Assembly (NCBI RefSeq): GCF_017811155.1
Contig: NZ_JACVCV010000009.1
Coordinates: forward strand, 124,001 to 188,000
Direction: 5' to 3'
Length of the DNA stretch: 64,000 bases
Source of the DNA: Lunatimonas salinarum
GTDB taxonomy: Bacteria; Bacteroidota; Bacteroidia; Cytophagales; Cyclobacteriaceae
The notes under the pieces are model-generated. The model was not told the DNA's origin, did no database searches, and saw nothing but the letters and a program-made list of their open reading frames with translations. Shown here one piece after another: positions 1 through 1,611 of the stretch; within the stretch, counting starts at the first letter, position 1, and each line of letters begins with the position of its first letter. The position numbers and the translations under genes were made by a program.

Positions 1-1071
1 TGTTTCCAAGGTAGGTTTCAGTTGCGTTGGGGGGAAAAAGTCGTATTCGATGGCATATCCTGGTCTGAACATCTTGGCTTGTTCGAATCCTGGAATTTGT
101 CGTAGTGCTTTGTATTGGACATCTTCGGGTAGGGACGTTGAAAATCCATTTACGTAGATCTCCACGGTATTCCAACCCTCAGGCTCTACGAATATTTGAT
201 GGCGTTCTCGTTCGGCAAATCGGTTTATCTTGTCCTCTATGGACGGGCAGTAGCGTGGCCCTAATCCTTTAATTCGCCCATTGAACATAGGAGATCGGTC
301 AAATCCAGTCTCTAGGGTTTCGTGTACGGCTTTGTTCGTATAGGTAATCCAGCAGCTGCGTTGGTTTTTTAAGGCTTGTGTAGTGGGTGAATAGGAAAAC
401 TTTTCTGGGAATTCATCTCCGTGTTGTTCTTCCATTTTGGTGTAATCGAGGGACCTTCCATCTACTCTGGGTGGTGTTCCTGTTTTCATTCTCCCTGATT
501 CAAAGCCTAGTGCTGTTAGGTCTTCTGTAATTCCTTTAGCTGGTGACTCGCCGGTTCGGCCACCGCCCATCTGTTTTTCTCCGATATGGATAATTCCGTT
601 GAGAAACGTTCCATTGGTTAGTACAACAGATTTTGCAGGTATTTCTATTCCTATTCCAGTTCGAACTCCTCTTACGACGCCATTTTTGACGATGATACCC
701 CGAATCATCTCCTGCCAAAAATCAACGTTAGGTGTTTGTTCTAGTGCTAGGCGCCACTCTTCGGCGAATCGCATGCGATCATTTTGGGTTCTGGGTGACC
801 ACATGGCAGGTCCTTTAGAACGGTTTAGCATTCGAAACTGTATCATAGAGTTGTCGGATATAATCCCCGACATACCTCCAAGTGCATCAATCTCTCGGAC
901 GATTTGCCCTTTTGCGACGCCTCCCATTGCCGGATTGCAAGACATTTGTGCAATGGTGTTCATATTCATTGTACATAGGAGTACTTTAGATCCCATACGT
1001 GCAGCAGCATGTGCTGCTTCGCATCCGGCATGACCCGCTCCTACTACAATTACGTCATATTCTGGAAACAT
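1..1071 (-). CDS. mnmG: tRNA uridine-5-carboxymethylaminomethyl(34) synthesis enzyme MnmG (partial, N-terminal 357 residues)
   Basis: MnmG (GidA) works with MnmE to place the carboxymethylaminomethyl group on U34 of certain tRNAs, using FAD and methylene-tetrahydrofolate. The visible N-terminus has the FAD-binding dinucleotide fold with GAGHAGCEAA at about residues 11-20. It is followed by the MnmG blocks CNPAMGGVAKG and GPAMWSPR, and further in by MGGGRTGES and MKTGTPPR. The gene runs leftward and is cut by the window start; the full protein is normally about 620 residues. The ATG at 1069-1071 gives the usual MnmG start with the beta strand DVIVVGAG close behind. The 108 bp between this start and the ybeY stop hold two parS-like palindromes, so its promoter must overlap or sit among them. 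Confidence 0.96.
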   Translation of the reverse strand, partial: MFPEYDVIVVGAGHAGCEAAHAAARMGSKVLLCTMNMNTIAQMSCNPAMGGVAKGQIVREIDALGGMSGIISDNSMIQFRMLNRSKGPAMWSPRTQNDRMRFAEEWRLALEQTPNVDFWQEMIRGIIVKNGVVRGVRTGIGIEIPAKSVVLTNGTFLNGIIHIGEKQMGGGRTGESPAKGITEDLTALGFESGRMKTGTPPRVDGRSLDYTKMEEQHGDEFPEKFSYSPTTQALKNQRSCWITYTNKAVHETLETGFDRSPMFNGRIKGLGPRYCPSIEDKINRFAERERHQIFVEPEGWNTVEIYVNGFSTSLPEDVQYKALRQIPGFEQAKMFRPGYAIEYDFFPPTQLKPTLET

Positions 1072-1088
1072 GATTTTTTTTTCTTAGG

Positions 1089-1104
1089 TGTTCCACGTGG
1101 AACA
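1089..1104. other. parS: parS-like centromere site 1 (ParB binding)
   Basis: The sequence TGTTCCACGTGGAACA is a perfect 16-bp palindrome. It fits the bacterial parS consensus TGTTNCACGTGNAACA, which ParB binds to start spreading along the chromosome around the origin. It lies 17 bp upstream of the mnmG start codon. Known from the family: parS sites cluster near oriC and are often close to gidA/parAB. ParB binding here is inferred from the exact match. Confidence 0.85.
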
Positions 1105-1156
1105 GTTTTGATTTAATACCTCAATTTTCTGTTGCGCAAAGTACTGGTTAGTGAAG

Positions 1157-1178
1157 TACTGTTCCACGTGGAACAGTA
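1157..1178. other. parS: parS-like centromere site 2 (ParB binding), 22-bp perfect palindrome
   Basis: The same 16-bp core, TGTTCCACGTGGAACA, recurs at 1160-1175. Here three more complementary bases on each side extend it to a 22-bp perfect palindrome (1157-1178). The two cores start 71 bp apart, about seven helical turns. The palindrome ends 1 bp before the ybeY stop codon, so on RNA it could also form a hairpin just after ybeY, although no U-tract follows. Two exact copies in a 90-bp interval make chance very unlikely. Confidence 0.87.
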
Positions 1179-1179
1179 G

Positions 1180-1611
1180 CTACTGTTGGGTTGCATGGAA
1201 TTGATCGATGGCTTGTTCTTCTTTGGTTCGCATTATAGAGACTTCCTCTGTTGTTTTGTCTTTATACCCACAAAGGTGGAGAAGCCCATGACTGATTACT
1301 CTTTTAAGTTCGCGATCGAACGTTTGGTTTAATTTGCTGGCGTTTTCGCTTACTCTATCAATACTAATGTAGATTTCTCCTTCTATGCGGTTTTTTCCGT
1401 CGCTTTGGTCAAAGGTAATGATATCGGTATACGTATCGTGTGCGAGATACGCTAGGTTGATGTGATGTAAATAGGTATCGGAGCAGAATATGTACAAAAG
1501 TTCCTTGATAGATAGCCCCTCCTTTTCTGCTACGGCTGTCAGCCATTTTTTGTAGGCGTTTTTTTGCTTTAACTCAAAGGAGGTATCTTCTGTAAAAAAG
1601 CGAATGGCCAT
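1180..1611 (-). CDS. ybeY: endoribonuclease YbeY (rRNA maturation)
   Basis: YbeY is a single-domain metalloprotein needed for 16S rRNA 3'-end maturation and ribosome quality control. The 143-residue protein has the expected small size. The family signature is HGLLHLCGYKD at about 108-118, with metal-ligand histidines H108 and H112. The third position, usually His in GYDH, reads Lys-Asp here (GYKDKT), so D118 may replace it. DIITFD (63-68) is the other conserved block. It lies 1 bp from the upstream anti-sigma-like gene, so the two are probably co-transcribed. Its stop sits directly beside the second parS site. Confidence 0.93.
   Translation of the reverse strand: MAIRFFTEDTSFELKQKNAYKKWLTAVAEKEGLSIKELLYIFCSDTYLHHINLAYLAHDTYTDIITFDQSDGKNRIEGEIYISIDRVSENASKLNQTFDRELKRVISHGLLHLCGYKDKTTEEVSIMRTKEEQAIDQFHATQQ

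Follow-up and report, generated by a model that had tools for sequence, protein, structure and literature searches.

The stretch of DNA analyzed here (the window; 64,000 nucleotides) corresponds to bases 124,001–188,000 of contig C166 of the Lunatimonas salinarum genome. Its left edge falls within mnmG (gidA), which was recognized from its open reading frame and its homologues: the first 357 codons are in the window (1..1071, minus strand), and the gene runs on outside it, with the whole occupying C166:123206-125071. The mnmG start codon is located at 1069-1071 on the minus strand. On the other side of an intergenic segment of 108 bp (1072..1179, no strand assigned) lies ybeY, an endoribonuclease gene (1180..1611, minus strand; Pfam PF02130, E = 9.5e-27). 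Both of the features of interest are contained in this segment: parS site 1, proximal to mnmG, is an exact match to TGTTCCACGTGGAACA at 1089..1104, and parS site 2, proximal to ybeY and upstream of which that gene lies, is an identical, exact match at 1160..1175; neither is assigned to a strand. A first-pass annotation had described two exact, perfectly palindromic 16-mers in the gap between mnmG and ybeY and had proposed that they fit the parS consensus TGTTNCACGTGNAACA. A search of the window confirmed the copies, their palindromic nature, and their location, with both flanking genes on the minus strand, and each site fits the consensus exactly. No further parS site had been noticed by eye, and indeed none is present in the window with two or fewer mismatches. 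Dinucleotide shuffles of the window yielded a mean of 0.20 matches at this tolerance (≤2 mismatches), and two matches were reached in only 1 of 100 shuffles.

An even distribution of the 16-mer around the chromosome would have spoken against a centromere. It was not seen in a search of the whole assembly (5,459,576 bases in 166 contigs, 99.99% complete): TGTTCCACGTGGAACA occurs exactly twice, both times in the ybeY–mnmG gap. The copies are few and clustered (2 in 5.46 Mb, 71 bp apart from start to start), and a reversed-pattern control had no exact match anywhere in the assembly. Relaxing the match to two mismatches brought in one place on each of four contigs, including one on C166 at a distance of 13 kb; because the reversed control yielded 15 such places, we regard these four as noise and rejected them as further parS sites. 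On the strength of these searches, the pair looks like the sole parS centromere of the L. salinarum genome.

A centromere of this type calls for a cognate ParB, and the first-pass annotation had staked the parS reading on the presence of a parB gene. One was found, adjoining parA: the genome search detected one protein with an HTH_ParB domain, and its N-terminal, HTH, and C-terminal ParB domains are all present. The parAB genes are on a different contig from parS. A parA-like ATPase gene lies directly upstream of parB, and downstream are a DUF5683 gene and an open reading frame that, by eye, looks like dapB. Among the solved structures nearest to this ParB by sequence, ParB and Spo0J chains rank before the first Noc. 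Its residues at the parS-contact positions are Q162, G170, K171, N172, R173, N178, G201, and R204, and it has Y at position 179 and K at position 184; these numbers derive from an ungapped count from the GK-x-R motif, not from an alignment to Caulobacter ParB. In the available part of PMC7383237, the combination of R173 and G201 is the mark of parS-type as opposed to Noc-type proteins, position 172 is S in the published set (N here), and about 28% of ParBs have K or R at position 184. Judged by its DNA-reading residues R173 and G201, the L. salinarum ParB is of the parS type. The sites resemble Noc-binding sites (NBS) in that the latter are related 16-bp sequences read by ParB paralogues; they differ in that the sites here fit parS and the protein has R173/G201, not Q173/R201. 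The genome also encodes a full-length SMC (SMC_prok_B match, 1038.9 bits).

We examined the conservation of the pair in a set of relatives composed of the best 80 of 449 matches to the MnmG query, which share 86–93% identity with it. The top-scoring entries include Lunatimonas, Lunatibacter, Mariniradius, and Algoriphagus, and several are titled Cyclobacteriaceae. In every one of these 80 best matches, the 400 bp upstream of mnmG contain two or more core sites (GTTYCACGTGRAAC). When the entire locus is counted, the number is two in 73 relatives, three in four, four in two, and five in one. The placement of the proximal site is tight: in 79 of the 80 relatives its center precedes the mnmG start codon by 20.5–29.5 bp, and in the remaining one by 151.5 bp. 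In a separate group of 30 family loci, the site or sites were upstream of mnmG in every case, one locus having a single core site. A hand count extended this analysis to 148 family genomes. The core is present in 140 of them and occurs exactly twice in 101; otherwise it is absent from 8, single in 12, and found three, four, or five times in 20, 6, and 1, respectively.

The first-pass annotation had suggested that the two sites, at nearly seven helical turns, could nucleate one ParB complex, a suggestion that the comparison does not support: the spacing in the relatives is 31–68 bp (n = 80; median, 45.5 bp), and the 71 bp of this genome, equivalent to 6.8 turns at 10.5 bp per turn, lies outside that range. 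Across the 80 mnmG loci, helical phasing at 10.5 bp gave an R of about 0.51, but most of the spacings fall in one narrow peak (43–48 bp) of related species. A broader collection of 48 spacings was also assembled from 35 family loci (consecutive pairs less than 150 bp apart), with 7 more taken from the table of 148 genomes. In this collection, R was 0.33 at 10.5 bp, and a smoothed null gave a higher value in 0.6% of 5,000 draws; R was 0.36 at 9 bp, and because this value is the higher of the two, the helical period is not singled out. The 71-bp spacing deviates from the mean phase of this collection by about 4.5 bp.

The tight placement before the start codon raises a question: does the pair serve mnmG as well as the chromosome? 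It could be that parS also lets ParB set the transcription of mnmG, which would explain the constant distance to the start codon. TAnnTTTG, a Bacteroidota promoter motif, matched once in the 160 bp before mnmG over the 80 loci, so that no promoter could be located with respect to the parS sites. A precedent for such a dual role exists in plasmids F and P1, the ParB proteins of which silence genes near parS (PMC7333895, in the part available). The constant placement may, however, simply reflect the shortness of the gap, and we consider the dual role unlikely.

The first-pass annotation had further inferred that the window lies near the replication origin, and this proposal is supported by a conserved cluster of DnaA boxes and by GC skew that mostly agrees with it. 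When C166 was scanned, unguided, for the 500-bp stretch richest in DnaA boxes (≤1 mismatch per box), the search settled on position 120,170, with 6 boxes; the next best place in 237 kb had 4. None of 200 shuffles of a 17-kb stretch exceeded 3 boxes. The cluster, 4.5–4.9 kb from the parS pair, falls in a 565-bp intergenic gap of 35.8% GC, the putative oriC (C166:119994-120558), which is 4.5–5.1 kb from the pair and 3.4–4.0 kb beyond the window’s left edge. Thus, the arrangement looked for in an oriC, an intergenic DnaA-box cluster beside AT-rich DNA, is found here. It is also found in the relatives: among the loci of at least 12 kb (9 of the 80 were shorter and were dropped), the densest cluster is 4.45–4.67 kb from the proximal parS site and beats its runner-up in 71 of 71. 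Among three relatives assembled as single contigs, genome G036 has 10 boxes 5.0 kb from parS, and G028 has, at 4.9 kb, a weak cluster of 3 boxes, a number equaled at two other places; in G107, no cluster was present in the DNA on the one side of parS that was read.

An alignment of the putative oriC from this genome and five relatives revealed a conserved box next to AT-rich DNA. A 19-base signature of the cluster, ACAWATCCACANNWTAATA, occurs in 34 of the 148 family genomes, once in each except one genome, with no control hits; it is 4,787–4,874 bp from the proximal parS site among the 18 of these 34 genomes for which parS positions were listed. The signature is absent from the other 114 of the 148, including G028 and G036. 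In 19 larger regions from other families, no comparable box cluster was found near parS (3 boxes in one 10.5-kb contig and 0–2 elsewhere), and we therefore confine the oriC proposal to the Cyclobacteriaceae. As a separate observation, a conserved DnaA-like box together with TAATA stands beside an AT-rich run at C166:120226-120244, with one copy in this genome; this arrangement resembles the unwinding elements of other origins.

GC skew and dnaA had been put forward as the landmarks with which to compare the parS positions. The first served in part. In 6-kb bins of C166, the skew is negative in 10 of 10 bins between 60 and 120 kb and positive in 15 of 16 after 144 kb, with parS between the two at 125 kb; in the first 60 kb, 8 of 10 bins are positive despite the expectation of a negative side. 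Cumulative skew reaches its minimum at 135,577, which is about 10 kb beyond parS as seen from the box cluster, with a second low near 120,000; the former is the minimum of one contig of a 166-contig assembly, not that of a whole chromosome. A coarse change of skew sign at parS is clear in two single-contig relatives and weak in a third. In G028, all 10 samples on one side are negative, and all 10 on the other are positive; in G036, 11 of 11 are negative (the last of these spans parS) and 7 of 9 positive; and the noisy profile of G107 has 7 of 9 negative on the left and 6 of 11 positive on the right. A finer view of G028 (400 kb around parS, 10-kb bins) was far less clean, with 16 of 20 negative bins on the left but only 7 of 20 positive on the right. 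Its cumulative minimum is not at parS, mainly because of a negative-skew patch of low to ordinary GC content (G028:C1:5860001-5950000, GC 0.36–0.47) that is 70–160 kb from parS in an otherwise positive arm and that could be an island or an inversion.

The second landmark, dnaA, is a poor guide to the origin: it is on a different contig from parS here and 0.76–1.43 Mb away from it in six of six single-contig relatives. The sites could be genuine parS while replication begins at dnaA or at the C166 skew minimum (near window position 11.6 kb) rather than at the box cluster. The position of that minimum and the imperfections of the skew evidence speak for such an origin. Yet there is no box cluster at dnaA, either in the 4.4-kb dnaA locus of this genome (best, 2 boxes) or in a 20-kb region of G036 (best, 2, vs. 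10 near its parS); in both G028 and G036, dnaA falls within the arm of positive skew; and the cluster near parS is conserved in all of the relatives’ loci examined. We accordingly hold an origin elsewhere to be quite improbable. The sequence data favor an origin that is probably close to parS and away from dnaA, and that most likely coincides with the DnaA-box-rich intergenic stretch.

Is the association of parS with mnmG peculiar to this family? In a hand count of 392 genomes from the phylum, the core is present in 359, with one copy in 48, two copies in 239, and a larger number in 72; the other 33 lack it. The reversed control was non-zero in 19 of the 392. From these genomes we chose a panel of 50, all having a match and representing 49 families (one genome each, except for two from family f7), and inspected fetched regions of 10–20 kb, one contig without mnmG being only 10.5 kb long. 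Because the mnmG starts in the panel came from alignment to the MnmG of this genome, the following distances err by a few codons. A parS site lies within about 510 bp of mnmG in 43 of the 50. Of these 43, 18 have sites close to both ends of the gene (no more than about 115 bp away), 10 have them near the upstream end alone, and 15 near the downstream end alone (as far as about 510 bp away); in the 7 other panel genomes, mnmG is outside the fetched region. Two of the 18 both-end genomes and one of the 15 downstream-only genomes have a parS site inside the last codons of mnmG. One group of 20 regions was picked mostly for a spacing of about 1.9 kb, and its 18 of 20 is thus not a frequency, whereas the 18 of 50 is. 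Outside the panel, five genomes of family f8 have no mnmG in the 19–20 kb around parS, and the gene is presumably located elsewhere; ybeY is there in four of them (L307–L310).

These results bear on the notion that the palindromes are no centromere at all but an operator of mnmG or an RNA hairpin, acting as an attenuator or translation-control element. The constant position before the start codon would suit it, as would the predicted RNA folding of the segment (z = -5.61, with 0 of 200 shuffles as good), although two identical palindromes must pair in any case; still, we judge this highly improbable, as the sequence is that of a ParB site, with few copies in any one genome, the panel includes genomes with sites only downstream of mnmG or with mnmG outside the fetched region, and the hairpin was rejected because the two variable positions lack stem covariation (C stands opposite A in 19 proximal and 28 distal sites, out of 80 each).

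We return to the reading of the pair as the chromosomal parS of a ParABS system, with the origin most likely in the nearby DnaA-box-rich gap, which we hold with high confidence. It is based on the sites themselves, their uniqueness and conservation, the parA, parB, and smc genes, the DnaA-box cluster, and the mostly agreeing skew. ParABS, origin-near parS, and the loading of SMC by ParB are established (PMC7333895, in the part available). The system resembles chromosomal ParABS of the Spo0J/Soj type (Bacillus subtilis, Caulobacter, and Pseudomonas) in its 16-bp parS consensus, its few sites, and their proximity to a probable origin, as well as in the adjoining parA and parB, the parS-type residues of ParB, and the presence of SMC. 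It departs from that type in that parAB and dnaA are off the parS contig and in that the sites form a tandem pair before mnmG. By analogy with known ParABS systems, ParB from the parAB operon on the other contig would bind each 16-bp palindrome as a dimer, close as a CTP-dependent clamp, and slide over the flanking mnmG and ybeY DNA; the resulting complex would be moved by ParA and could load SMC. Replication would start at the DnaA-box cluster. Because the origin most likely lies 4.5–5.1 kb from the pair, parS would be among the first sequences copied and could segregate first.

The panel counts at the ends of mnmG argue that the tandem pair of the Cyclobacteriaceae is a local version of a broader attachment of parS to this gene. 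In Bacillus and Pseudomonas, gidA, gidB, and parAB are neighbors at the origin. With that arrangement in mind, the present one suggests that parS and mnmG have kept the old neighborhood of the ancestral origin, while dnaA and parAB have moved away. A stronger proposal, that in many Bacteroidota parS and mnmG constitute one selected unit, with parS at one or both ends of the gene and with mutual effects between ParB loading and mnmG expression, seems to us rather doubtful; were it true, it would link translation quality to chromosome segregation.

The parS sites themselves are ordinary; it is their attachment to mnmG in many Bacteroidota families that holds the interest. Our literature search found no paper joining parS, or oriC and parS, with mnmG, and none on Bacteroidota among those on parS sites with gidA, judged by title; the 2007 study of Livny et al., which we take to be the standard parS survey, was outside the search. 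In the available part of a study of gut bacteria that included two Bacteroidetes (PMC10197239), parS clusters mark ori and dnaA does not do so systematically; mnmG and gidA have no occurrences in its main text. The present genome is similar in that parS marks the probable origin and dnaA does not, and dissimilar in that, according to the same part of that study, its two Bacteroidetes are without known condensin, whereas an SMC_prok_B match exists here. The core sequence beside mnmG offers a sequence handle with which to locate the origin in the Cyclobacteriaceae, and perhaps across much of the Bacteroidota, where dnaA misleads. Such a handle would be useful for orienting assemblies and for estimating growth rates from coverage. 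The bond between parS and mnmG, together with the frequency of both-end genomes, also raises the question of why the centromere stayed at this gene.

Copy number varies considerably in one genus (g93, of family f7), the genomes of which have 3–10 parS cores, a number that rises with genome size. Over 25 genomes of 2.9–5.7 Mb, the correlation coefficients, uncorrected for relatedness, were 0.91 (Pearson) and 0.89 (Spearman). In the one genome of this genus that was read (G167), six parS sites lie upstream of mnmG and one lies downstream.
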